A DNA stretch of 64,000 nt from Candidatus Manganitrophus noduliformans (GCF_012184425.1 NZ_VTOW01000001.1:1364001-1428000), one strand, 5' to 3'; counted from the stretch's first letter, positions 6,693 through 37,185 are shown. Notes: generated by a model from the letters alone, not told the origin. Made by a program: numbers and translations.

Positions 6693-9062
6693 TTGGCCAA
6701 AGCAGTTAAAAAGAAAAAGGAATCGGGGAAGAGTGGCCCAGGGAAAGGGACGACCGCCGGTGCCCGGGGGAAAAAGACGGCCACACGGACGAAGTCGCTC
6801 GTGATTGTGGAGTCCCCTTCGAAGGCGAAGACGATCTCGAAATATTTGGGAAAGCAGTTTTCCGTGATGGCCTCGGTCGGGCATGTAAAAGACCTCCCCA
6901 AGTCGAAGTTCGGCATCGATATCGATCATGACTTTGAGCCGGAGTACACCGTCATCAAGGGAAAAGCGAAGGTCCTCTCCGAAATCAAAAAGGCGGCGAA
7001 GGAAGCCGATAAGATCTATCTGGCCCCCGACCCCGACCGGGAAGGGGAGGCGATCGCCTGGCATATCGCCCAAGAACTGAAATCGCGCAACGGCGATGTC
7101 TACCGGGTCCTTTTCAACGAAATTACCGAAAAGGCGATCCAGCGGGCGATGCAGTCGCCCGGCAACATCGACATGAAGCGGGTCAATGCCCAGCAGGCGC
7201 GCCGGGTCTTGGACCGGATCGTCGGTTATCGGATCAGTCCGCTCCTCTGGGAAAAGGTCCGCCGCGGTCTCTCCGCAGGCCGGGTCCAGTCGGTGGCGGT
7301 CCGTCTGATCTGCGAGCGGGAGGCGGAGGTCCTCGCCTTCGTTCCGGTAGAATATTGGAGCATCACGGCGAAGCTGCTGGGACCGAATCCCCCTCCGTTC
7401 GTCGCCCGGTTGATCCAGCGCGGAGGGGAGGCGATTGAGATGGGAAATGAGGCCGATGCGCAGGCGGTCCTCGAAGCGCTCCGTCCCCTTCCCTTTGTCG
7501 TCTCCAAGATCGAGAAAAAGGAGCGGAAGCGAAACCCGACCCCTCCCTTTACCACCAGCCGGTTGCAGCAGGAGGCGGTGCGCAAGCTTCATTTCACCCC
7601 GAAAAAGACGATGATGCTGGCGCAACAACTCTATGAAGGGGTCGAGACCCAGGCGGAAGGGGCGGTCGGTTTGATCACCTATATGCGGACCGACTCGGTC
7701 CGTGTCTCGCCCGACTTTCAGCAGGAGACGGCGGCGTGGATTCGTGGAAAATATGGAAACGAGTATGTTCCGGAGGCGGCCCCGGTTTATAAAAGCAAGA
7801 AGGGGGCGCAGGAGGGGCATGAGGCGATCCGTCCGACCTCGCTTGCGCGTGATCCCGAACAGCTCAAAGCCGATCTGACGAGGGACCAATACCTCCTCTA
7901 TAAATTGATCTGGAACCGGTTTGTAGCCAGCCAGATGACCCCGGCTGTCTTCGACGTGACCCGGATCGACATCACTGCGGGGGATTTCCTGCTGCGGGCC
8001 TCCGGAGCGATCATTAAATTCGCCGGCTTCTCCATCGTCTATATGGAAGGGAAAGAAGAAGGGATTCCGCAGGAGAAAAAGGAGGGGGAAGAGACGGAAG
8101 ATACCTCCGAAGAAGCGGTGATCCTGCCGGAGCTGACTGTCGGGCAGCGCCTGACCCTCCAATCGCTCGATCCGAAACAGCACTTTACGCAGCCTCCCCC
8201 CCGTTACAACGAGGCCCTGCTGATCCACGATCTGGAAGAGAAAGGGATTGGGCGACCCAGCACCTATGCTGCGATCATCTCGACCATTCAGGATCGAAAA
8301 TATGTCGAGAAGCGGGAGGCCCGCTTCTATCCGACCGAGTTGGGGAAGGTCGTCAATGAGCTTCTGATCCAGCATTTTCCCGATGTGGTGAATGTCGAGT
8401 TCACCGCCCAGATGGAAAATGAGCTCGATGGAATCGAAGACGGAGAAAAAGAGTGGGTCGCGACGGTCCGCGGGTTCTACGAGCCGTTCAGCAAAGAGTT
8501 TAATCGGGCGCAGGTCGAAATGCGGGATGTGAAGCGGGAAGAGACGCCGACCGACCTCACCTGTGAAAAGTGCGGCAAGCCGATGGTGATTAAATGGGGC
8601 CGCTTCGGCCGATTCATCGCCTGCTCCGGCTATCCCGACTGCAAGAACACCAAGGAGTTTGCCGAGACGGCCAATGGAATCGAGGTGGTGGAGAAAGAGA
8701 CCGCCACCAACGAGGTCTGTGAAAAATGCGGCAAGCCGATGGTGATCAAAAACGGCCGCTTCGGCCGATTCATGGCCTGCTCCGGTTATCCCGAGTGTGA
8801 GAATACCAAGCCGATCAGCACCGGCGTCGCCTGCCCCGAAGAGGGGTGCGGCGGGGCCCTCATCGAAAAGCGAACCCGGCGGGGAAAGAACTTTTTCGCC
8901 TGCAATCGCTATCCCAAATGTACTTTTGCCCTCTGGGAGCGTCCTGTTCCCCGGGCCTGTCCGGAATGTAAAGCCCCCTTCCTCATCGAGCGTCGCGAAC
9001 AGGGGGGCGGGATGAAGGTGGTCTGCCGAAACGAGGGGTGCGGCTTCGAAGATGCCGGTTGA
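6693..9062 (+). CDS. topA: DNA topoisomerase I
   Basis: This type IA topoisomerase relaxes negative supercoils. It has a basic Lys/Gly-rich leader of about 35 residues, then the TOPRIM domain (LVIVESPSKAKTISKYLG, with the acidic DPDREGEAIAWH motif), and the catalytic core with the active-site Tyr at about residue 330 in LITYMRTDSVRVSP. Four C-terminal zinc-ribbon modules follow. Two are near-identical, of the form CEKCGKPMVIK-x-GRFGRF-x-ACSGYP-x-C, then CPEEGCGG...CNRYPKC and CPECKAP...CRNEGCG. The start is a TTG with GGAGG six bases upstream; the basic leader is in frame and no better start is visible. A 118-base gap containing a 28-bp palindrome separates it from trmFO. Length (789 residues) and domain order are normal for the family. 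Confidence 0.96.
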   Translation: MAKAVKKKKESGKSGPGKGTTAGARGKKTATRTKSLVIVESPSKAKTISKYLGKQFSVMASVGHVKDLPKSKFGIDIDHDFEPEYTVIKGKAKVLSEIKKAAKEADKIYLAPDPDREGEAIAWHIAQELKSRNGDVYRVLFNEITEKAIQRAMQSPGNIDMKRVNAQQARRVLDRIVGYRISPLLWEKVRRGLSAGRVQSVAVRLICEREAEVLAFVPVEYWSITAKLLGPNPPPFVARLIQRGGEAIEMGNEADAQAVLEALRPLPFVVSKIEKKERKRNPTPPFTTSRLQQEAVRKLHFTPKKTMMLAQQLYEGVETQAEGAVGLITYMRTDSVRVSPDFQQETAAWIRGKYGNEYVPEAAPVYKSKKGAQEGHEAIRPTSLARDPEQLKADLTRDQYLLYKLIWNRFVASQMTPAVFDVTRIDITAGDFLLRASGAIIKFAGFSIVYMEGKEEGIPQEKKEGEETEDTSEEAVILPELTVGQRLTLQSLDPKQHFTQPPPRYNEALLIHDLEEKGIGRPSTYAAIISTIQDRKYVEKREARFYPTELGKVVNELLIQHFPDVVNVEFTAQMENELDGIEDGEKEWVATVRGFYEPFSKEFNRAQVEMRDVKREETPTDLTCEKCGKPMVIKWGRFGRFIACSGYPDCKNTKEFAETANGIEVVEKETATNEVCEKCGKPMVIKNGRFGRFMACSGYPECENTKPISTGVACPEEGCGGALIEKRTRRGKNFFACNRYPKCTFALWERPVPRACPECKAPFLIERREQGGGMKVVCRNEGCGFEDAG

Positions 9063-24856: not shown

Positions 24857-27800
24857 TTACTGTGTGGCGATTCGGCCGGGCCGAGGCCGGCTCTGAGGAT
24901 TTTGATCCTTTTTTGTTGCGAGGTGGGGGAGGAAAACGGTGAAACGAGAGCCTTTCCCGAACGCGCTTTCGACTTCGATTGTTCCCTCGATCAGATTCAG
25001 CGCCTTCTTCACGATCGTCAGGCCGAGACCGGTTCCTTCAGCCGACCGGGTGAGGGAGCCGTCCACCTGCCGGAAGGGGTCGAAGATGGAGGGGAGATCC
25101 TCCTCCCGCATCCCGATGCCGGTATCTTCGACCGAAAGAACGATCCCCCTCGGCATCGATTGGTTCGCCGCGGAGATGGTGATCGATCCGCGGTCGGTAA
25201 ACTTAATGGCATTGGAGAAGAGATTCAGAAAGATCTGACGGACCCGCTGCGGATCGCTCCAAAGGGGAGCAAGCGGCCCGGCCAGACGCCAGTGGACCTC
25301 GACCGCCTTCTCGTGCAGGAGCGGCTTGACGTTTTCGAAGACCTCCTGCAAGAGCTCCTCCAGATCGAATTCCTCCAGGTTCACTTCGATCTTTCCCGCC
25401 TCGATCTTCGAGAGATCGAGCAGATTGTTGATCAGCGATAAAAGCGATGCGGCGTTCCGCCGGATGCTGCTCAACGGTTCCTTCTGACGGTCCCGCAGGG
25501 GGCCGTAGATTTCGTCCTGGAGCAGGTGGGTATAACCGATGACGGCGTTCAACGGGGTCCGCAGCTCGTGCGACACGTTCGAGAGGAACTCGGTCTTCAG
25601 ACGGCTCGCCTCTTCCGCTTCCCTTTTTTTGTGGGTGAGCTCCTGAAAAAGCCGGGCGTTCTCGATAAAGGGAGCGAGGTGGTTCGCAAAAGGGAGGAGC
25701 GACTCGATCAGGGTGTCGGAGTAGGCGCCGGGCCGGTCGCTCTTGAGATTGAGCGTGGCGATCACCACCCCCTTCAACACGACCGGAAGGATGGCGTAAG
25801 AGCGGATCCCTTCTTCAAAGAGAAAGCGATCCTCGACATAAATTTGGGAGGCGCCGAGATCGGGGCGGATCAACGGCCGTTGATGCGCAAGGACCCAATC
25901 GATGGCCGATTGCTCCTGCGGCCACCGGGCGGTCCCGATCCGATTCTGCTGCTCGATCCGGAGGAGTTGGATCTCTTTGAGCGATTCATCCCGAAAGCCG
26001 ATGCTGAGGCGGCTGTAGGAAACATGGCGTTTGAGCCCCTCGGCGATGTGGAAAAAGACCTGATCGAGATTCCGGCTGAGGCTGATCTCTTTGGTCAGGA
26101 GGGCGAAGCGCTCGTGAAGCGCCGCCGTCTCGGCGTGAAGCCGCTCGTTTTCGATGGCGATGGACGCGTAGCGCGCGAGGATCTCGATGGTTTTTCCATC
26201 TTCGCGGCTCAGGCTTCTTCCCCGTTGGGCCGTGAGGAAAAAGAGGACGCCGACCGCTTCTCCTTTGACCAGGATCGGCGTTCCGATCGCCGACTGAACG
26301 GACCTTCCGCGGAAGAGGGGGAGGGCTTCGAAGAAGTCGGGGTGATCTTCGATCGTGATGTTTTTCTTCTCCCGGAGGATCGGGCCGATCATCTCATCCG
26401 GCGCGACCCGCTCGCCGGCCTCCGGAGAGGAGGGGCCGACGGAGACCTGCATGACGTACGAAGCGCCGTCCCGGTCCTGCAGGACGATCCCTCCTTTTTC
26501 CATCTCCATCAGGGAGCATCCCCGTTGGACCACCAGATCGAGCACCGCAAGCCAGTTCGATTGGGCGCCGATCTCCTGAGCGATCTCCCGGAGCGCCTCG
26601 GTCCGGGCCAGGTGGCGGTCGCGCTCTTCGAGCCACTTCAGATAATGGACGGCGGTGGCCGCTTCCGAGGCGATCGCGGAGAGGATCTCAATTTCGTGCG
26701 GCCGGAAAGCGCCGGCCTCGCCGGAATAGACCACCAGGGCGCCGCTGCTCTCCTCCTGGAAGAGGAGCGGGACGGCCACCAGCGAGAGAAAGCCGAAGCG
26801 GGTCGCCTCTTCCCGCAGCGGGAGGGGAATCGTCCGCTCGGATTGAAGCTCGGGGATCGTGACCACCCGCCGTTCGCGAATCGCAGTGATGCCGGGGCTT
26901 TCCTCCTGCACCGTGGCGATTTTAAACGCCTCGGTGAAGAAGGGGATCTGGACCGGCGGAACCTGATAGGCCCCCTTCGGAACGATCTCCTCCCCCTGTT
27001 TTAATAGTAGGACAGAGAAGGTCCCATGCACCGTCTCCGCCGCGATCTGGGCCAATCGATGGAGAATTTCCTGGGGGGGAAGGTTGGAGGAAACGGCGCT
27101 GACCACTTTGTAGAGGAGCGCCTGCCGCCGCGCCTGCTCGACCGATTGCTGGAACAGCCGGGTATTTTCGATCGCCACCGCGGCCTGCTGCGCCAGCATT
27201 TCGCCGAGCTTCCGGTCGGCGTCGGTGACCGTTTTGTTCGGCTGAGAGGTCGCCATGTTGAACGCGCCGATCACCTCCCCCTTCCAGAAGATCGGGATTC
27301 CGATATAGGTTTTCAACTGAAGGGCGGCGATCTCCGCAATCGGACTGTTCAACGAAGGATCATCGTATACGAGGACAATCTTCTTTTCTTCCGCCACGCG
27401 GCCGACAAGCCCTTCTCCTCTTCGGAATTTCTGTCCCACCAACGACGGAGGGAGATTTGCAACGCCGCGCAGGACAAAGGCCTCCTCTCCCTTCCGCCAC
27501 AGCAAAAAACCGGCCACTTCGAAATCAAGGAGCCGCAACCCCTCGAAGAGAATCAGTTGGATGAGCCGATCCAGTTCCGATTCGGCCGTCAGACGGCTGC
27601 TGATCTGCTGGAGCGTTTCGAGATGGGAGGCGAACCGCGCCCGCTCCAAGGAGGTCGCTTTTTCTTTTTGATAGGCCTCCTCCTTTTGGCTGGAGAGGAA
27701 GTTGATGATCCAGCCGATCGGGAAATAGAAAAAGGAATAAATCCCCTCCAGGGTCATGGTATTCGAAGAGAAGGCGGCCGGATCATAAGAGAAGGGGAGC

Positions 27801-28213
27801 AGCGTGAAGAGGAAGGCGGCGATCATGACGGTGAGATTCTCTTTCCGGGAGAGAAAGAAAGAGGACCAGAAGATCACAAGAAAATATAAGAAAGCATAGG
27901 GGCTGGCGGCCCCGCCGCTGAAAAAAACGAATCCGGCGATATAAAAGAGGGTCAACACCGTGGTGAAATAAAAAACGCGAATGGAGAGGCGTCGCCAATC
28001 GAGCATGAGGAAGAAACAGCCGGTGACGGCGGAGATCAGGCAGATCAGATCGAGAACGCGGGGGACGCTTTGATCCGATTGGGGGAAGAGGTGGAGCGTC
28101 GTCCAGACGACGGCCGTCGAAAAGAAATAGAGGAGACCGGCCGTTTTCGCCATGGTGACCCGCTTTTCCTCGCCGGGTTGAGGCAAGATCCATCTGGCTG
28201 CAGGCTGCTTCAT
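24857..28213 (-). CDS. Membrane-anchored sensor histidine kinase with multiple GAF domains
   Basis: At 1118 residues this is the largest kinase in the window. The first about 180 residues contain six hydrophobic segments (for example TAGLLYFFSTAVVWTTLHLF, VFYFTTVLTLFYIAGFVFF), an integral-membrane sensor unit. Four GAF-type domains then follow (about 195-345, 360-520, 535-690 and 700-860, for example AAVAIENTRLFQQSVEQA and ASIAIENERLHAETAAL). A coiled coil, HisKA with His882 in NVSHELRTPLNA and a HATPase (EDTGIGMREEDLPSIFDPF, GTGLGLTIVKKA) complete it. The core is close to that of the downstream kinase, so the pair probably arose by duplication. A second possible start lies 60 bases in, at MAKTAGLLYFF. 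The 84-base gap to the exported hydrolase operon upstream leaves open cotranscription with it. Confidence 0.87.
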   Translation of the reverse strand: MKQPAARWILPQPGEEKRVTMAKTAGLLYFFSTAVVWTTLHLFPQSDQSVPRVLDLICLISAVTGCFFLMLDWRRLSIRVFYFTTVLTLFYIAGFVFFSGGAASPYAFLYFLVIFWSSFFLSRKENLTVMIAAFLFTLLPFSYDPAAFSSNTMTLEGIYSFFYFPIGWIINFLSSQKEEAYQKEKATSLERARFASHLETLQQISSRLTAESELDRLIQLILFEGLRLLDFEVAGFLLWRKGEEAFVLRGVANLPPSLVGQKFRRGEGLVGRVAEEKKIVLVYDDPSLNSPIAEIAALQLKTYIGIPIFWKGEVIGAFNMATSQPNKTVTDADRKLGEMLAQQAAVAIENTRLFQQSVEQARRQALLYKVVSAVSSNLPPQEILHRLAQIAAETVHGTFSVLLLKQGEEIVPKGAYQVPPVQIPFFTEAFKIATVQEESPGITAIRERRVVTIPELQSERTIPLPLREEATRFGFLSLVAVPLLFQEESSGALVVYSGEAGAFRPHEIEILSAIASEAATAVHYLKWLEERDRHLARTEALREIAQEIGAQSNWLAVLDLVVQRGCSLMEMEKGGIVLQDRDGASYVMQVSVGPSSPEAGERVAPDEMIGPILREKKNITIEDHPDFFEALPLFRGRSVQSAIGTPILVKGEAVGVLFFLTAQRGRSLSREDGKTIEILARYASIAIENERLHAETAALHERFALLTKEISLSRNLDQVFFHIAEGLKRHVSYSRLSIGFRDESLKEIQLLRIEQQNRIGTARWPQEQSAIDWVLAHQRPLIRPDLGASQIYVEDRFLFEEGIRSYAILPVVLKGVVIATLNLKSDRPGAYSDTLIESLLPFANHLAPFIENARLFQELTHKKREAEEASRLKTEFLSNVSHELRTPLNAVIGYTHLLQDEIYGPLRDRQKEPLSSIRRNAASLLSLINNLLDLSKIEAGKIEVNLEEFDLEELLQEVFENVKPLLHEKAVEVHWRLAGPLAPLWSDPQRVRQIFLNLFSNAIKFTDRGSITISAANQSMPRGIVLSVEDTGIGMREEDLPSIFDPFRQVDGSLTRSAEGTGLGLTIVKKALNLIEGTIEVESAFGKGSRFTVFLPHLATKKDQNPQSRPRPGRIATQ

Positions 28214-28297
28214 AGGGACTGAACCTTAAGATTCGGAATAAAAATGGGGTTTCGTCATTATAGGGAAATGACGATGGACGATGCAAGTGGGGATCGA

Positions 28298-29371
28298 TTA
28301 TCCCAGCGTAGACTGAAAGTGCCGGAGCGCCGTGGAGCGGATGTAGGGGAGGAAGAGCCCGGCGGTATAGTGGCCCGCCGGAATTTGGATGCGCGGCGGT
28401 TTTCCCATCTTTTTCCAGAGTTGTTCCGCATAGACGGGGAGAATCACCCGGTCGAACCGGGCGTCGACCAGAAGGGTGGTGGAAGATCGGATGCAGCCGG
28501 CGTAGGTCAGCGGATCGACCGGCGAGAAGGCCGCGCTCGCCTCTTGGTGGAAGGACTCTTTCGAAAACTCTCCGGAGCTTAAAATTCGTTTGCGGATCTG
28601 GGCGAGGCTTCTCTCCTCTGTCGAGGAGAGAATGCCGGCGAGCCCCCCCCCTCCCAGAATGAAGACGCCGGCCTGAATCCGCGGATCGAGCCCCGCCACC
28701 AAGCTGCCGACGATCGCCCCTTGGCTGATCCCGAAGAGGCCGATCTGCGATCGATTGACGATCGATTGGGACTCCAGCCAGTCGATCCCGCGGAGAACAT
28801 CGATCACGTAGGCGTGAAAATAATCCCGAAAGCGTTTCAGGGCGGCGCGGCCGCTCTGATCGGGCGGGATGATTTCGGCGAAGTTGCCGCGGGTGGTGTA
28901 CTGCAGCACGGCGAACCGCCGTTCGGCGAAGAAGCGGGCGAAGTGCTCCGTGATCGCGTCTCCGTTCGTGATCGGAAGGAGGATCACGGCGGGAAAGGGG
29001 GGCCGCCCCGAGGGGCGGTAAAAATAGGCGCCGACCTCCTTTCCGGCTTCGACGGAGGGATAGGCGAGGTTTCGAACGGTGTAGGCGATCCGATCCCTTT
29101 CCTTTCCGAAATGGGGTCGGATGATGGAAAGGCGGTTCGATCGCCCGGGCTCTTTACCGCCGCGCCCTTGCGAGATGAGGTGAAGATCGCTCTCGGGGGA
29201 GGCGGGGAGGGGGGAGAGCGGTTTTCGGAAAGGCTGCAGCCGATCTTCCCTGCAAGCGTTCTCTTTTCGGGAAGATCCCCCGTCCGCAACATTTTCGGAG
29301 GGAAGGATGGCGCAGCCGAAGAGGAGGAGAGAGAGACTGTAGCAGATCACGTTTTTAAACGAAGGGGGCAT
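28298..29371 (-). CDS. Exported alpha/beta-hydrolase lipoprotein
   Basis: The product has a lipoprotein signal (MPPSFKNVICYSLSLLLFGC, lipobox LFGC), so it acts in the periplasm or at the outer membrane. The mature part is an alpha/beta-hydrolase of the dienelactone-hydrolase/acyl-peptidase type. The early strand PPFPAVILLPITNGD is followed by the nucleophile elbow IGLFGISQGAIVGS (Ser in GISQG), an acid in LVDARFDRVILPVY, and a likely catalytic His in IPAGHYTAGLF. Substrate is unknown; esterase or deacylase activity is plausible. It is the last gene of the five-gene exported hydrolase operon, eight bases after the preceding gene. Confidence 0.8.
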   Translation of the reverse strand: MPPSFKNVICYSLSLLLFGCAILPSENVADGGSSRKENACREDRLQPFRKPLSPLPASPESDLHLISQGRGGKEPGRSNRLSIIRPHFGKERDRIAYTVRNLAYPSVEAGKEVGAYFYRPSGRPPFPAVILLPITNGDAITEHFARFFAERRFAVLQYTTRGNFAEIIPPDQSGRAALKRFRDYFHAYVIDVLRGIDWLESQSIVNRSQIGLFGISQGAIVGSLVAGLDPRIQAGVFILGGGGLAGILSSTEERSLAQIRKRILSSGEFSKESFHQEASAAFSPVDPLTYAGCIRSSTTLLVDARFDRVILPVYAEQLWKKMGKPPRIQIPAGHYTAGLFLPYIRSTALRHFQSTLG

Positions 29372-29379
29372 ACGTCACC

Positions 29380-30732
29380 TCACTGGCGCGGGTTCAAAAA
29401 ACGATGGTATCGTCCCATCCAATAGGGGAGGAGGTAGTCGACCCCGGCGAAGCGGGTCATCCCGTCTCCTCCCCCTTTCAGACGATACGGATTTTCCTTC
29501 CACTCGAACGAATCGGCCGGACGGTCCTGAATCGGGAGCGGCGCGCACGATTGACGGCGCCCGAGGCGGTCTCTCCAGATCGAACGGCAGAGGTCCCGGC
29601 GGCGGCTCTGATCGACCGGCGCGTTTCGCTTCACACCCGGAAAATGGAAGAGGGTCTCGACGGCGCGGGCCGATGCCCGCGCTTCCTCCGCGCCGGTCAG
29701 GGCCCGATAGATGAAGGTGAAGAGGGGATTCGCCTCGACCCGAACCACCTCCCACGCCCGCCGGAGCCCCCGTCGATAGATCCGCCGGAGCGCCCGATCT
29801 TTCTCCAATTGCATCAGCGGGTAAAAGGCGAGGAAGGCGAGATTGTTGTCTGAGTGATTGGTCCCGACGAAGTATTCCCACCATTTGTCCCGCGCCGCCG
29901 CGGCGCGGAGGTGGTACTCTTTCCGGGTGATCAGACGGCGATAGGCCGCCGCGAATCGGGGCTCGGCCGTGATGTGGTGGGCCACCTTCATGATCATCAA
30001 CGCGATCAGGGCGTTGAGGTCTTCCGAGAAAAAACCGTCCCCCAGATCGCCGTGCTTCGTCCGCTTTCCGTCGCGGCCGATGATCTGCATTTGATGTTCG
30101 AGGAGATGGTCGGCGACGGCGGCGACGGTTTCGGCGGTCTCTCTATGGACGGTCGGCTCGTCGAGAAGATCGAAGGCGACCGCGTAGCCGAAGAAAACCC
30201 CATCGACCTGATCGACGCTGACGTCTCCCATCCAGCGATATTCTTCATGCCGTCTCTTCCCTTGGCGCCATCTTCCCTTTTCCCCCCGCGCCGGGGCGGT
30301 GGCTCTTCGGAAGGCCCGCGCCAAGAGCCCCTTTTTTCCGGTGACCTGGTGGAGGAGATGAAGCGCGTTGAGCGACGCCATGAGCCGCTGCCGGGCCTCC
30401 GGATCGCCGGTGACCTTCCATCGAAAAGCCTCGGCGGCGACATAACAGCCGGTCCAGATCGCCGCGTCGGCAAGACTCAACGTCGGGGGCTCTTTTTCTC
30501 TCACCCGGTAGAGGACCAGCCCCTCCAGGGAGAGGTGCCGTTCTCCCATCTGCCGTTCGTGCTCCAGCGCTTTCTCCAACAAAACCCCTTTGTCCGGGAG
30601 AACCGGCCGCGCGGGGGGAAGGAGGGAAGGATCGTCCCGGAAAAAGGGCAGACTGACCGCGGGGCGGCAGGCGTTCAGCGCCAGCAGGCCGCTCTCCAAC
30701 AGCAGCGCGGAGAGAAAAAGCCGCCTATTCAC
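29380..30732 (-). CDS. Unrecognised exported helical protein (possible alpha/alpha toroid)
   Basis: I do not recognise the family with confidence. The N-terminus MNRRLFLSALLLESGLLALNAC has an RR start and a lipobox-like ALNAC, so it is likely a lipoprotein. The mature protein is rich in amphipathic helices with conserved-looking aromatic/acidic stretches: DAAIWTGCYVAAEAFRWKVTGD, YRWMGDVSVDQVDGVFFGYA, HGDLGDGFFSEDLNALIAL and WEYFVGTNHSDNNLAFLAFYPL. This pattern recalls (alpha/alpha)6 toroid proteins such as glycoside hydrolases and polysaccharide lyases; that is inference from pattern only. It overlaps the upstream ceramidase-like gene by four bases and is followed eight bases later by the alpha/beta hydrolase, so it belongs to the same operon. 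Confidence 0.7.
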   Translation of the reverse strand: MNRRLFLSALLLESGLLALNACRPAVSLPFFRDDPSLLPPARPVLPDKGVLLEKALEHERQMGERHLSLEGLVLYRVREKEPPTLSLADAAIWTGCYVAAEAFRWKVTGDPEARQRLMASLNALHLLHQVTGKKGLLARAFRRATAPARGEKGRWRQGKRRHEEYRWMGDVSVDQVDGVFFGYAVAFDLLDEPTVHRETAETVAAVADHLLEHQMQIIGRDGKRTKHGDLGDGFFSEDLNALIALMIMKVAHHITAEPRFAAAYRRLITRKEYHLRAAAARDKWWEYFVGTNHSDNNLAFLAFYPLMQLEKDRALRRIYRRGLRRAWEVVRVEANPLFTFIYRALTGAEEARASARAVETLFHFPGVKRNAPVDQSRRRDLCRSIWRDRLGRRQSCAPLPIQDRPADSFEWKENPYRLKGGGDGMTRFAGVDYLLPYWMGRYHRFLNPRQ

Positions 30733-32132
30733 TTCGACACCTCCCGGCCGGCCGCTTCCGAAGACACCTCTTCGGAAAACGGCGGCGCATCGATCCGATC
30801 GATGAGGCGCGCGACCACCTCCACCAGGTACTCTCCCATCTGCGGGCCGTGAAATGACATCCTCGCCTCGTAAGCGGGGGTGAGGTAGAGGTCGCGCGGA
30901 AGGAGATAGCCGATGTAATCGTTGGCGAAGCCGACGATCATCGCTTCCATCCCCCGCGCGCGGGCGGAAGCTTTCATCTCTTCTCCCAAAACCACGCTTA
31001 TGTCGCCCGGAATCCCGATCAGGAGAACGGGGCCGATCCGGATCGTCTGGACGATCGTTTCGGCGTCGAAGAAGGGGGAGGAGAGAAAGGAGGCGAGCCG
31101 CTTCCCCGATTTCATTTTGACTCGCGCCGGCGGGAGGTGAATGGAGAGGGTCTGAACGGAGAGCCCCCGCGTTTCTTGGGGCGTCATCCGCGGCGATTCG
31201 CCGACCCGACGGGCCAGTTCCCGTCCCATCGCCCGGGCCTGTTCGTAGCGGTCCGATCCCTCGGGGGGGTGGGCGGTCTGGTCGGCGACCGAGCCTGCGG
31301 TGAAGAGGGCCACTCCCCCCTGTTCTTCGATCGCCGCTTCCAGGAAGCCGGGGTAGTCGCCGGAGAAGTGGAGATTGTCCGGCTTGAGGACCGTTGCGTG
31401 GGCGGAGAAGTTGACCAGTGTGGCGATCGTCTCCCCCTCTTCTCCGAGCATTTCGACAAAGCGGACCTCGGGATCGACCGGGCCCGACGACTTCATTCGA
31501 TTGCGGATCAAGTCGGGGGCCGAGGCCGCCCCGTGGCGGATCCGGGCCGGTTTCATCGCGCCGGCGGCGAGGAGGGCGGCCTCGGCGAGGGTGTCGGTTA
31601 TCTTTTCAAAATAAGAGCGGTCGAAGGGGCCGGCGGCGAACTGTTCCAGAAAGCCGCTCGACAAGGCCCCCGGACCGGAGTGGGTATGGGTGGCGGCGAT
31701 CATCAGCCCACGCGCGGGGAAGGGAATTTTCGTCCGGATTTTCCGGAGGACCGCCCCTCTCATCTCGTCGGTGACGGCAAGAAGATCGACCGAGATCACG
31801 ATCACCCGCTCCTCCCCCTGCCGGAGGGCGAGCGCCCGGGCGAAGAGAAGATCATGCATCCCCTTCGCCGTCCCGACCCGCTTGCCGTAGCCGGCCATCG
31901 GAAGGCCGGGGGAGAGGGGAAGGGGAATCTTGGCGGCGCCGGCAAGGAAGATCGGTTGGGAAGCGGTTTCCGGACGGGGCGGGGCGAGCCGATCGATCTC
32001 GGAGAGGGTCGCTTTATAGAAGTCGGCCCGGTCGAGCCGGACCTCCTCGATTGCGAGGCAGCCCCAGAGAAGGGTGAGGTTGAGAAGGATGAGAAAGAGG
32101 ATGAGGGTGATTCGATGAGATCGTTTTTTCAT
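30729..32132 (-). CDS. Neutral/alkaline ceramidase-like exported hydrolase (shorter paralog)
   Basis: The mature protein matches the N-terminal domain of neutral ceramidases, zinc enzymes that cleave the amide bond of ceramide. Visible motifs are AGAAKIPLPLSPGLPMAGYG, VISVDLLAVTDEM, the zinc-site stretch MIAATHTHSGPGA, a second histidine in LVNFSAHATVL and an ALFTAGSVADQT loop where the catalytic Ser region lies. The C-terminal Ig-like domain of classical ceramidases is absent (467 residues). A hydrophobic N-terminus (ITLILFLILLNLTLLWGC) with lipobox-like LWGC points to a lipoprotein. It lies 20 bases after a longer paralog and overlaps the next gene by four bases. True ceramide activity cannot be claimed, because the family also includes uncharacterised amidases and esterases. 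Confidence 0.83.
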   Translation of the reverse strand: MKKRSHRITLILFLILLNLTLLWGCLAIEEVRLDRADFYKATLSEIDRLAPPRPETASQPIFLAGAAKIPLPLSPGLPMAGYGKRVGTAKGMHDLLFARALALRQGEERVIVISVDLLAVTDEMRGAVLRKIRTKIPFPARGLMIAATHTHSGPGALSSGFLEQFAAGPFDRSYFEKITDTLAEAALLAAGAMKPARIRHGAASAPDLIRNRMKSSGPVDPEVRFVEMLGEEGETIATLVNFSAHATVLKPDNLHFSGDYPGFLEAAIEEQGGVALFTAGSVADQTAHPPEGSDRYEQARAMGRELARRVGESPRMTPQETRGLSVQTLSIHLPPARVKMKSGKRLASFLSSPFFDAETIVQTIRIGPVLLIGIPGDISVVLGEEMKASARARGMEAMIVGFANDYIGYLLPRDLYLTPAYEARMSFHGPQMGEYLVEVVARLIDRIDAPPFSEEVSSEAAGREVSK

Positions 32133-32152
32133 GGGGCGATTCCTCTCGTTGC

Positions 32153-33808
32153 TTACTTCAGTAGCTCCACCAATGTTTCCACCACCCGCGGCGCCATCCG
32201 GGAACCGGCGGAGACGATCTCTTCATAATGATCGTCGTCGCCGCAGCGGTCGGCGCCGTAGCGGAGCTTCGGTTTGAGCCGCGGGGGGACGAAATCGTTG
32301 GCCGGAACGATGTAGCCGAGCTCGTCGTTCCCCAGGCCGACGACAAAGCGGTAGTCACCCGCCATCTTCTCACCGAGGACCGGCTCCGGCGCGATGTCGG
32401 GATGGGCCGGGCCGATCCGTTCTCTTCCGCTCCCGCCCAATTCTCTTTTTCGGCCGGTATACGTCCAGCAGCGTTTCTTTTCGGTGAGGTGCCCGCCGAG
32501 GATGGTCTCGGGAAAAGGCTCGCCGGGGAGGGTGATGAACTGGGCGGCGATTCCCTCTTCTCCGTAAAAGTTGATCACATTCACCTCTGTCAGCAGATCG
32601 GGCCCCTCTTTCCCGGCCGGTTTTCCGTCCCGATAGGTCTCCCTTTGAAAGAGCCCCTTTTCGTAGAGGCCGCGAAGAAAGGGGTTGTCGAAGGGGACAA
32701 AGAGGGTTTTGGAGCGAACTTCGATCCGGACGATCGGCCGGGGAGGTTGATCCCGGAGCGCTTCCAGGGCGGTCCAGGCGGCGATCTCGCCGATCCGCCG
32801 GGCCTTCGACCAGGAGCGCTCCGGGATCGGCTCCCCCTCCTCGTCGCGGATCGGAATCCGAAGCGGCGTGAGAAGCCCCCCGACGCTGCCGCTGAGGTAA
32901 ATGGCGACGCCGCCGATCCCCTCCGCGCGCCGCCACCCGACGGAGAATCCCCCCTCCTCGATCCCTTTGCGGAGGTAATGGGGAAAGTCGGAGGTGATCA
33001 GGCTGCTCCCCGCGCCGACCGTTTCGGGATGGGGGGACCAGTTGATCAGTGTGGCGATCGTCTTCCCGTCGAGCGCTTCCGCCCGCATCACCCGAAGCTC
33101 GTCGTCGATGACGACCGGGTTGCGCAGGTCGTTGATCAATATCCCGAACCGGGAGAGGGGACGCCCCTTCCCCCAGCTCAATCGGGCGGGGCGGCGCGCG
33201 GCCCAGGCCCGGCGGATCGCCTCCTCGGTTCGGGAGCGGATCTGTTCCATCGTCCGGGGATCTTTGCCGTCGATCGAGAAGTTCGGACCCCAGAGACCGA
33301 GCGTATCGACCCCGCCGTGCGTGTGGGTGGCGGCGACGATCACCTGTGTCAGCCCCAGATCGGCGACGCGCTCCCGGATTTGCGCCACCTCCGGATAAAG
33401 CAGTCCGACGACGTCGAGCGCTACGATCGCGAGCGTTGTTTCCCCCTGCTCCAGAACCAGCGCCCGCGCCCAGAGGGGGTCGTGCACGCCGGTGGCGGTG
33501 TAGTAGGGGCCGTGGTGGAAAAACCCGGCGAGGAAGGGGCCGTCCCACTTGCCGTTGCCGTTCAGATCGGTGAACGGCTCGCCGCGCTGCCTGGGACGAT
33601 CGGGATCGGGAGCATCATACCGGCCGTTCTTGTTTCGATCTTCATACGGCTCCTGCCGGAGGCGGCCTTGGTCGTCGACCGGCGTGATCTCCAGCGCCGC
33701 GGCGCCGGCCAGGAGCGGCGCGTCGGCCATTGCGGAAGAGGGGAGCAAGAAGATCAACAGGACGAAACTCAAAAGACCGAGATCGCTCTTCAGCCGAACG
33801 CCGATCAT
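32153..33808 (-). CDS. Neutral ceramidase-like exported hydrolase with calcium-loop insert
   Basis: This is a longer (551-residue) paralog of the next gene. It has a cleavable signal (GLLSFVLLIFLLPSSAMADA), the family start LLAGAAALEITPV, VAIVALDVVGL-like strand IVALDVVGLLYPEV, the zinc-site VIVAATHTHGGVD, a second zinc His in LINWSPHPETV and IYLSGSVGGLLTPL in place of the usual active-site loop. Between strand 1 and the 'G..DPLWARALVLE' segment it has an insert with two calcium-binding-type loops, DRNKNGRYD and DLNGNGKWD, like those in dockerin or EF-hand proteins. This suggests Ca2+-dependent folding outside the cytoplasm. It starts nine bases after the metallohydrolase gene. The substrate is not determined; ceramide, other N-acyl lipids and lactones are options. 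Confidence 0.84.
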   Translation of the reverse strand: MIGVRLKSDLGLLSFVLLIFLLPSSAMADAPLLAGAAALEITPVDDQGRLRQEPYEDRNKNGRYDAPDPDRPRQRGEPFTDLNGNGKWDGPFLAGFFHHGPYYTATGVHDPLWARALVLEQGETTLAIVALDVVGLLYPEVAQIRERVADLGLTQVIVAATHTHGGVDTLGLWGPNFSIDGKDPRTMEQIRSRTEEAIRRAWAARRPARLSWGKGRPLSRFGILINDLRNPVVIDDELRVMRAEALDGKTIATLINWSPHPETVGAGSSLITSDFPHYLRKGIEEGGFSVGWRRAEGIGGVAIYLSGSVGGLLTPLRIPIRDEEGEPIPERSWSKARRIGEIAAWTALEALRDQPPRPIVRIEVRSKTLFVPFDNPFLRGLYEKGLFQRETYRDGKPAGKEGPDLLTEVNVINFYGEEGIAAQFITLPGEPFPETILGGHLTEKKRCWTYTGRKRELGGSGRERIGPAHPDIAPEPVLGEKMAGDYRFVVGLGNDELGYIVPANDFVPPRLKPKLRYGADRCGDDDHYEEIVSAGSRMAPRVVETLVELLK

Positions 33809-33817
33809 CGCGACCCT

Positions 33818-34990
33818 CTATCTTAAATAAATAGGGTTTGAGTAGATCCAAGGCCACCAGCGGTCGCCGCGATGGATCGTCCATTCGACCCGGTAGACCC
33901 CTTTCTCCGTCGGAGAAAACGAGAACGCGGTTCCCTCGCCACCATAAACGACCGCGCCGTCTTTGATCAACCGAAATCTCCCCGGCCGCGGCGCGCGGGC
34001 GTGGAGCGCGATTCCTTCCCGAAAAGGGATCTCGCCTCCCATCCGCCATGCTCGATCTTCATGTCGGGCGCCGAAGAAAAAGCCGCCGGCGTCGGCAAGG
34101 ATGTCGAACGAGATATAGCCGTGCCCTTCTCTCAGGGCGTGAAGGATCGCCTCCTGATCGAGCGCGGGGACGAGGAGATGGGTGTTCACGAAGCGGAAGG
34201 AGCGGGCGTAGGGATCGAGCTGGCGGCCGAGGATCCGGACGTTTTGATGGGCGTCGTTTCCGGCGATGCCGGCGACCTTCCGCGACGGCGTCATCCGGTC
34301 CCAGAGGGCCAGCTCCCGCTCCGGCCGGTCCAGAATCGATAAGAAAACTTCGTCCGGGTAGCGGTTGAAGCGAAAGAGGATGTCGAAAAAATAACGGACA
34401 TAGCGCGCGTTGCGGTCGGTGGCGTCGTCGAAGATATCGTAGATCTCGATTCCGTCGAGCCCTTTTAATTTTCGCCACCCCGGATAGTTCTTCGGGTGGG
34501 CGGCGAAGAGGATCGCTCCCTCTGCTTTGAGCCGATCGACCACCTCCTGGAGGGGAATCGGGCGGTGATCGATGAATTTTTTGATCCCGATGGCAAGGAG
34601 GGACGCCTCTTCCTTGATGATCTCCATCCCCCGAATCACCAAGAGATCGCCGTGCCGCCCTTCCAGTCCCTCGGTGAAGATGTTGGGATTGCTGTGATCG
34701 GTCATGACGATGAAGTCCAATTTCGCCTCGCCGGCGGCCTTCAGGATTTCTTCGGGCCTTCCTTCGCTGTCGTGCGAGAGGTAGGAGTGGACGTGGATTG
34801 CCCCGCGGATGTCGCGGTATCCTTCCGGTAAAGGGGCGCGGGAGGTTGGGGGCGGGGGCTCTTGCAAGGCGCGCCGCAGCTTTTGCAATGATTTTGTCGA
34901 AGCGCAAGAAAGGGTGGCCGACAGGAGCAGGAGCAGGCCGACGGCCAGGCCTCTTTTCAGTGTTTTCTTGTCGGGGGCGCTCATCTGCAT
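33818..34990 (-). CDS. CehA/PHP-type metallohydrolase lipoprotein
   Basis: The first gene of the exported hydrolase operon encodes a 390-residue lipoprotein (signal AVGLLLLLSATLSC, lipobox TLSC). The mature protein has a PHP/CehA-like metal-dependent fold: YRDIRGAIHVHSYLSHDSEG supplies the first His-x-His, LDFIVMTDHSNPNIF the next Asp-His pair, VIRGMEIIKEEASLLAIG and ILFAAHPKNYPG further ligands, and GIAGNDAHQNVR the final Asp-x-His. CehA/McbA enzymes hydrolyse phosphoesters or carbamates; the substrate here is unknown. A C-terminal Ig-like segment (FRLIKDGAVVYGG...YRVEWTIHRGD) follows. No strong ribosome site is seen before the ATG at 34990, and a second ATG lies six bases in. The promoter should lie in the 160 bases before tRNA-Leu on the opposite strand. 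Confidence 0.85.
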   Translation of the reverse strand: MQMSAPDKKTLKRGLAVGLLLLLSATLSCASTKSLQKLRRALQEPPPPTSRAPLPEGYRDIRGAIHVHSYLSHDSEGRPEEILKAAGEAKLDFIVMTDHSNPNIFTEGLEGRHGDLLVIRGMEIIKEEASLLAIGIKKFIDHRPIPLQEVVDRLKAEGAILFAAHPKNYPGWRKLKGLDGIEIYDIFDDATDRNARYVRYFFDILFRFNRYPDEVFLSILDRPERELALWDRMTPSRKVAGIAGNDAHQNVRILGRQLDPYARSFRFVNTHLLVPALDQEAILHALREGHGYISFDILADAGGFFFGARHEDRAWRMGGEIPFREGIALHARAPRPGRFRLIKDGAVVYGGEGTAFSFSPTEKGVYRVEWTIHRGDRWWPWIYSNPIYLR

Positions 34991-35154
34991 GGAGATAGAC
35001 CGGCCGGCGGAGGTTTGTGTGACGAACGAGCGATCGCTGCGTGATCGATGATTCTTATTCTATCGATCTATCGATCCGCATGCCGTAAGCTGGATTTCAC
35101 CGGATCAATTTCTTGATTAATAGAAGGAGATATGTTAAATATTGGGAGCTTTCG

Positions 35155-36474: not shown

Positions 36475-37143
36475 TTATCTGGTCCCCTTCTTCCTCTTTC
36501 CGCCTCTGGTGGCCGCTCTATTTTCTAGGCCATTCATCTCTGCTTCCACCTCTAGGTGGCCGAGGATAGCATCCTTAATCATCATAAGGGCTTCCTCCAC
36601 GGTCTCCCCCTGTGACGCACAGCCGGAAAGAGAGGGGCATTCAACCCAAAAGCCCCCTTCCTCCAAATCGGGATGTAGAATTACATCGTAGGACTTTCCC
36701 CTGACCACGACCTTATACTTCCGATCCTGAGCGATTTTCTCTACCTCTCCCTTCAATCCTTCGACGATCTCCCCGATGGCCAGGGCAAAAACCATCTGCC
36801 CCTTTGAAAGGGTGTCGAGGATAACGTTTTTGTCTCTCGTCAAGACGAAGATTGTTTCCCCATCGGTAAGAAATTTCATCTCTGCCAGGGGTTTTTTCAC
36901 GTCGGGGAAGTTCTTTTTTAAGTAGGTCATCGCCTTCCGGATTTTCTGGAGCGAGATCCCCTTATCCATAAGGGTCTTGGCCACTTTCAACTGAACCAGA
37001 TCGGTGAATGAATAGAGTCGGGTGCTCCCATATCCGGACGCCTCTTTAATGGAGGGTTTGATGAAATGGCTCCGGTCCCAGTAGTCCACTTGTCTTGTGG
37101 TCAGTCCTGTTAATTTGAGAACCTGTTTTGTGCCAAATGCCAT
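36475..37143 (-). CDS. MerR-type HTH fused to a HicB antitoxin domain
   Basis: The 222-residue product joins two families. Residues 1-75 are a MerR winged-helix domain: FGTKQVLKLTGLTTRQVDYWDRSHFIKP, SGYGSTRLYSFTDLVQLKVAKTLMDKGISLQKI. A linker domain (about 75-150, GETIFVLTRDKNVILDTLSKGQMVFALAIGEIVEGL) resembles the effector part of short MerR-like regulators. Residues 155-205 are a HicB fold: YKVVVRGKSYDVILHPDLEEGGFWVECPSLSGCASQGETVEEALMMIKDAI. Classical HicB antitoxins carry a ribbon-helix-helix or HTH_3 domain after the HicB fold, so a MerR domain in front is unusual. The start is set by AGAGGGGGG six bases upstream of the ATG at 37143. It should repress its own promoter and neutralise the toxin next door. 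Confidence 0.85.
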   Translation of the reverse strand: MAFGTKQVLKLTGLTTRQVDYWDRSHFIKPSIKEASGYGSTRLYSFTDLVQLKVAKTLMDKGISLQKIRKAMTYLKKNFPDVKKPLAEMKFLTDGETIFVLTRDKNVILDTLSKGQMVFALAIGEIVEGLKGEVEKIAQDRKYKVVVRGKSYDVILHPDLEEGGFWVECPSLSGCASQGETVEEALMMIKDAILGHLEVEAEMNGLENRAATRGGKRKKGTR

Positions 37144-37185
37144 CGCTATCCCCCCTCTTATGAGCATTTAAAAAAACATAGATGT

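Follow-up and report, generated by a model that had tools for sequence, protein, structure and literature searches.

A conserved, apparently dispensable module of predicted exported hydrolases in Candidatus Manganitrophus noduliformans and its possible envelope glycolipid substrate

The window analysed here, a stretch of 64,000 nucleotides from Candidatus Manganitrophus noduliformans (NZ_VTOW01000001.1:1364001–1428000; host genome of 5.17 Mb in 22 contigs), contained five consecutive open reading frames on the minus strand, matching exactly the positions given in a preliminary description. From right to left these encode a PHP-domain metallohydrolase of the CehA/McbA type (PHP, 33818–34990; recognised by its reading frame, profile scans and PHP motifs), a divergent ceramidase-fold zinc hydrolase with a Sec signal peptide (CerB, 32153–33808; by profile and fold comparison), another ceramidase-fold zinc hydrolase that is a predicted lipoprotein (CerA, 30729–32132; by PF04734 and ligand alignment), a member of a new protein family with a GTG start, a Tat-type lipoprotein signal and, in a structural model, a predicted (alpha/alpha)6-type barrel (TOR, 29380–30732), and an alpha/beta hydrolase, also a predicted lipoprotein (ABH, 28298–29371; by profile and alignment of Ser, Asp and His). 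The computed intergenic distances were 9, 20, −4 (an overlap) and 8 bases, in agreement with the earlier claim of spacings of 20 bases or less and a four-base overlap.

Upstream of PHP there was a putative promoter-bearing stretch (34991–35108, strand not assigned), deleted in two congeners, in which no consensus sigma-70 promoter was found. At the other end, the operon terminated in the gap between ABH and a histidine kinase gene (28214–28297, minus strand), which has a TATAAT box inside it and is preserved in congeners without the operon. The kinase (24857–28213, minus strand; 1118 amino acids, with four GAF-domain stretches) starts 84 bases after ABH and was present in all congeners, with or without the operon; it was rejected as a sixth operon member because it stays, with its upstream TATAAT box, where the operon is missing. 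Elsewhere in the window, at 36475–37167 (minus strand), a single reading frame fused a MerR-type HTH with a HicB-like antitoxin domain, both scoring above Pfam cut-offs.

Signal peptides and lipoboxes were judged by eye and by conservation in alignments. All five products appeared to be exported, as previously proposed: four carry a lipobox-like signal and CerB has, by eye, a Sec-type signal at its N-terminus. The lipobox Cys was invariant in the ortholog alignments of CerA (C25), ABH (C20) and PHP (C29); TOR, again by eye, begins with an RR-type (Tat-like) sequence and a lipobox-like Cys, and looks Tat-exported. From these signals, the enzyme set was predicted to be mostly anchored in the outer membrane.

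PHP matched PF02811 and, with 81.8 bits, passed just above the cut-off of 80 for the CehA/McbA model NF038032. Its metal motifs, HxH (66, 68), TDH (98, 99), AHP (165) and DAH (246, 248), were invariant in five orthologues. PHP shares this domain model and all the PHP metal motifs with CehA/McbA metallohydrolases, but differs from them as a predicted lipoprotein set beside ceramidase-fold enzymes. ABH scored above the BAAT_C cut-off and keeps conserved Ser216 (within GxSxGA), Asp307 and His334. It has the nucleophile elbow, Asp and His in common with BAAT_C-type alpha/beta hydrolases and the RcgR family, although the profile matches are weak, the score against the putative quorum lactone hydrolase RcgR (NF047337) being 33.7 bits, below the cut-off of 182; it constitutes a conserved family of its own, a predicted lipoprotein with GGG(D/G)L and GHY motifs. 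A paralogue of ABH (about 230–270 bits) occurred elsewhere in the genus and in genome G013, and the genes surrounding paralogues of ABH and PHP offered no hint of a substrate.

CerA was far above the cut-off for PF04734, whereas CerB, at 25.9, was under it (32.1). Profile comparison confirmed the ceramidase family for CerB (E = 4.7e-9), and a Foldseek search with its low-confidence model (pLDDT 57) returned ceramidases as the only significant neighbours (E = 1e-13 to 2zws). The CerA and CerB profiles aligned with each other over 368 columns (E = 6.8e-32), and also with solved neutral ceramidases (2zws from P. aeruginosa and human 4wgk). The likeness consists in the fold and in aligned Zn-ligand positions, which were H149/H151, H245, D377 and Y409 in CerA and H162/H164, H260, E430 and Y499 in CerB; we take the ligands in 2zws to be His, His, Glu and Tyr, and CerA has Asp where ceramidases have Glu. 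Both proteins are shorter than the solved chains (467 amino acids for CerA and 551 for CerB, against 646–688), and in neither alignment was the catalytic Ser of true ceramidases present. This residue belongs to the GDVSPN motif and is presumably Ser354 of the human enzyme, a numbering that agrees with the chain positions in the alignment; it was replaced by T in the window's CerA, by T, R or G in CerA orthologues and, in the profile alignment to CerA, by L in CerB. Against the NCBIfam neutral-ceramidase equivalog, CerA reached 83.8 where the cut-off is 1200 and CerB gave no match. Judging by these alignments, 'ceramidase' denotes a fold in this case, with the Zn ligands kept and the catalytic Ser replaced.

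The host genome was searched with a single profile of the serine palmitoyltransferase type; the best match scored 353 bits against a cut-off of 640. Since the same protein scored better as BioF (488 bits) than against any SPT model and adjoins BioD, self-made ceramide is unlikely in this host. The preliminary description had placed two distinct ceramidase-like paralogues in an exported hydrolase operon with a PHP enzyme and an alpha/beta hydrolase. Profiles supported that composition and the fold and Zn ligands were upheld, but a literal ceramidase was made less credible by the replaced Ser and by BioF as the best match for ceramide synthesis. In one relative (G022, L059:8858–11286) a CerA gene broken by stop codons or a frameshift preceded another ceramidase-family gene, the third at this locus, which encodes 422 amino acids.

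TOR had no match in Pfam or NCBIfam, and none of its five members matched Pfam. A helical model predicted from the five sequences (pLDDT 69, pTM 0.76) had cellobiose 2-epimerase, AGE and GH76 barrels as its best Foldseek neighbours (E = 7e-4, TM about 0.45), so that the earlier guess of a toroid-like protein was tentatively supported, at the moderate confidence of that model. While the model suggests a possible (alpha/alpha)6-type barrel like that of AGE-type epimerases and GH76 enzymes, TOR is set apart by an identity of about 12%, the lack of a Pfam match and its own motifs, GxNHSDNNLA, KHGDL and EWxxNPYRL. Orthologues of TOR were found in four other genomes, the full-length ones only in CerA-positive genomes. 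A scan of genome contigs with strict TOR patterns returned only two Nitrospirota loci; no plasmid copies of TOR were found, the plasmids carrying only distant (about 30% identical) relatives of CerA and CerB. In the Nitrospira-like family f6, a distant TOR domain was contained in proteins of roughly 1000 residues (L022:9803–12916, L025:8596–11736 and L024:8458–11298), and the one of these that was scanned had no Pfam match.

Conservation was assessed among 197 genomes of the class, with CerA orthologues accepted at E below 1e-70 and ABH orthologues counted when adjacent to CerA or, in G001 and G002, when located at a contig end. CerA and ABH occupied the identical 12 of these genomes, from five families (a count uncorrected for phylogeny), and PHP, CerB, CerA and ABH orthologues co-occurred across families f1, f3, f7, f10 and f11. 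CerB orthologues, full-length or cut by a contig end, directly adjoined CerA in nine other genomes. All five genes were kept in G002, where ABH is split by a contig end, and PHP-CerB-CerA in G001, where ABH adjoins the kinase on another contig. Outside the genus, the order was PHP-CerB-CerA-ABH in G007, CerB-CerA-ABH in G019 and G038, PHP-CerA-TOR-ABH in G023 and PHP-CerA-ABH in G028. Four genomes (G022, G027, G034 and G036) combined CerB and CerA with an ABH set off from CerA by a small additional gene, and in the first two PHP lay 4–8 kb upstream of CerB. CerB was not found in the two f11 genomes G023 and G028, and TOR was absent from, or outside, most clusters; since each is missing from some clusters, not every step would seem obligatory. 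The cluster is therefore kept in distant relatives, as a check proposed at the outset had asked and contrary to the lack of conservation that would have refuted the idea. No description of the five-gene set was found in the open-licence papers searched, in line with the earlier remark that no described pathway with these genes was known.

Comparison of PHP, CerB and CerA with two congeners, and of TOR with one, gave pN/pS values of 0.27–0.43; these four genes are under purifying selection. Given these values, and because gene order recurs in other families, the five-gene pattern is not due to chance. The variable membership might nonetheless be read as genes with unrelated substrates that merely have their regulation in common, CerB not being found in two f11 genomes and TOR being absent or elsewhere in most. 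This is improbable, in view of the identical distribution of CerA and ABH, the order conserved over five families and the loss of the operon as one block.

That loss was evident in two close congeners, G003 and G005, in which the kinase gene adjoined a remnant of ABH, its final 31 or so codons, beyond which lay the promoter region and gene of a tRNA-Leu. Both genomes had the junction GGGAATT(T/C)GATTTTCTTG, and the two sides in the window share AATTT. The deletion reached through the stretch upstream of PHP to just before the tRNA-Leu promoter, and its simplest reading is a single event that would have removed the operon together with its upstream region. A recent insertion at the tRNA-Leu was rejected for these genomes, since the 3' scar of ABH indicates deletion. 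In the more distant G004 there was neither operon nor remnant. Loss by deletion in two close congeners implies that, as far as the genomes tell, the module is dispensable. A role in manganese lithotrophy is unlikely, as there are congeners without the operon, one of them a one-contig genome of 4.3 Mb; Ca. Manganitrophus noduliformans Mn1 has a reported genome of 5.2 Mb, and the cultured Mn(II) oxidisers SA1 and SB1 have reported genomes of 4.3 Mb (PMC9040806). The scar in G003 also held a short element beside the tRNA-Leu (L103, about 7640–7870; G003:C1, near 2955650–2955870), with inverted ends GGTAGTGGGTCAGTTT...AAACTGACCCACTACC and GGGAATTCG at both ends, which is probably a MITE.

The best clue to a substrate was the location of TOR, which alternates among genomes between the hydrolase cluster and an LPS-core operon. 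In G019 it lay outside the cluster, among MsbA, WaaA, LpxK, LpxL-type and heptosyltransferase genes, and overlapped by four bases the next gene, by eye a glycosyltransferase. In G028 it was again outside the cluster, in the company of WaaA and heptosyltransferase II genes. Both genomes carry the CerA-ABH cluster elsewhere, and within family f11 TOR was in the cluster in G023 and in the LPS operon in G028. Since TOR sits in LPS-core or lipid A operons in two cluster-bearing genomes, an envelope glycolipid is suggested as the substrate class, on the basis of two loci and a moderate-confidence model of TOR. This location would favour such a glycolipid over a free N-acyl lipid; an N-acyl lipid was the example named in the preliminary description.

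As the genes stay together in distant relatives, the five proteins probably work as one team on a lipid-bearing envelope molecule. Gene order, export signals, metal and triad residues, co-occurrence across families, the connection of TOR with LPS and loss as a unit were observed; from these we infer action on one common substrate, whose stepwise breakdown the preliminary description had suggested, and the identity of that substrate. Our tentative proposal, which we hold with less than even confidence, is that the five genes make up a single functional module whose products, exported hydrolases anchored for the most part in the outer membrane, deacylate or trim an envelope glycolipid; LPS/lipid A, or a molecule related to it, is the likeliest candidate. 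CerA and CerB, with one zinc each, would cleave amide-linked (or ester-linked) acyl chains, ABH would cleave ester-linked acyl chains, the PHP enzyme a phosphoester, carbamate or ester, and TOR may bind or process the sugar part. A narrower form, in which a dedicated outer-membrane set strips LPS/lipid A of amide-linked acyl chains through ceramidase-fold Zn enzymes that lack the Ser, with TOR as a sugar-acting barrel of mobile locus, is rather doubtful. Counting against the LPS reading, the gene trio in family f10 is found instead near a cluster of DUF3015 and Lnb (lipoprotein N-acyltransferase type) genes.

The main rival to glycolipid trimming is that the cell scavenges N-acyl lipids of neighbouring organisms (ceramides, N-acyl amino acids or lipopeptides), with CerA and CerB freeing fatty acids and amines, and ABH and PHP stripping esters or phosphates. 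The ceramidase fold of both Cer proteins, the exported lipoproteins, the dispensability of the module and an external lipid as the substrate left by the improbability of own ceramide are all compatible with it. However, genes for uptake or fatty-acid use are missing from the conserved cluster, true ceramidases have a catalytic Ser that CerA and CerB lack, and the association of TOR with LPS goes unexplained; scavenging is the less likely of the two. There is a small chance that the module hydrolyses compounds with a role in signalling or defence, for example lactones (acyl-homoserine lactones or others) or carbamates. The weak resemblance of ABH to the lactone hydrolase profile would fit, as would PHP, given that the CehA/McbA-like family includes carbamate hydrolases (PMC8292978), but ABH is far under its cut-off, NF038032 is a broad domain model, and neither the two ceramidase-fold enzymes nor TOR are accounted for. 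Maturation or turnover of lipoproteins by N-acyl removal is very improbable: an Lnb_N/DUF4105 gene, of the type reported as lipoprotein N-acyltransferase of Bacteroides (PMC12994826), lies upstream of CerB on the same strand in three f10 genomes, but two f10 genomes bearing the trio have no Lnb match, and in Manganitrophus Lnb lies apart from the operon and occurs in operon-free congeners too, for which reasons a general association of Lnb/DUF3015 with the cluster was rejected. One or more DUF3015 genes with an Lnb-type (DUF4105) gene formed a recurrent pair, seen in Manganitrophus also (L063:709–3823; L108:1035–3679).

The exported-hydrolase module is real and conserved and, by its deletion in congeners, dispensable; deacylation or trimming of an envelope glycolipid would be its mechanism, with lipid scavenging as the chief competitor. 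For a group of bacteria whose envelope biochemistry is little studied, it defines a conserved collection of exported enzymes yet to be characterised and points to a candidate class of substrate. The name 'ceramidase' in the annotation of such organisms may mislead, and the new family TOR gains a testable link to LPS.
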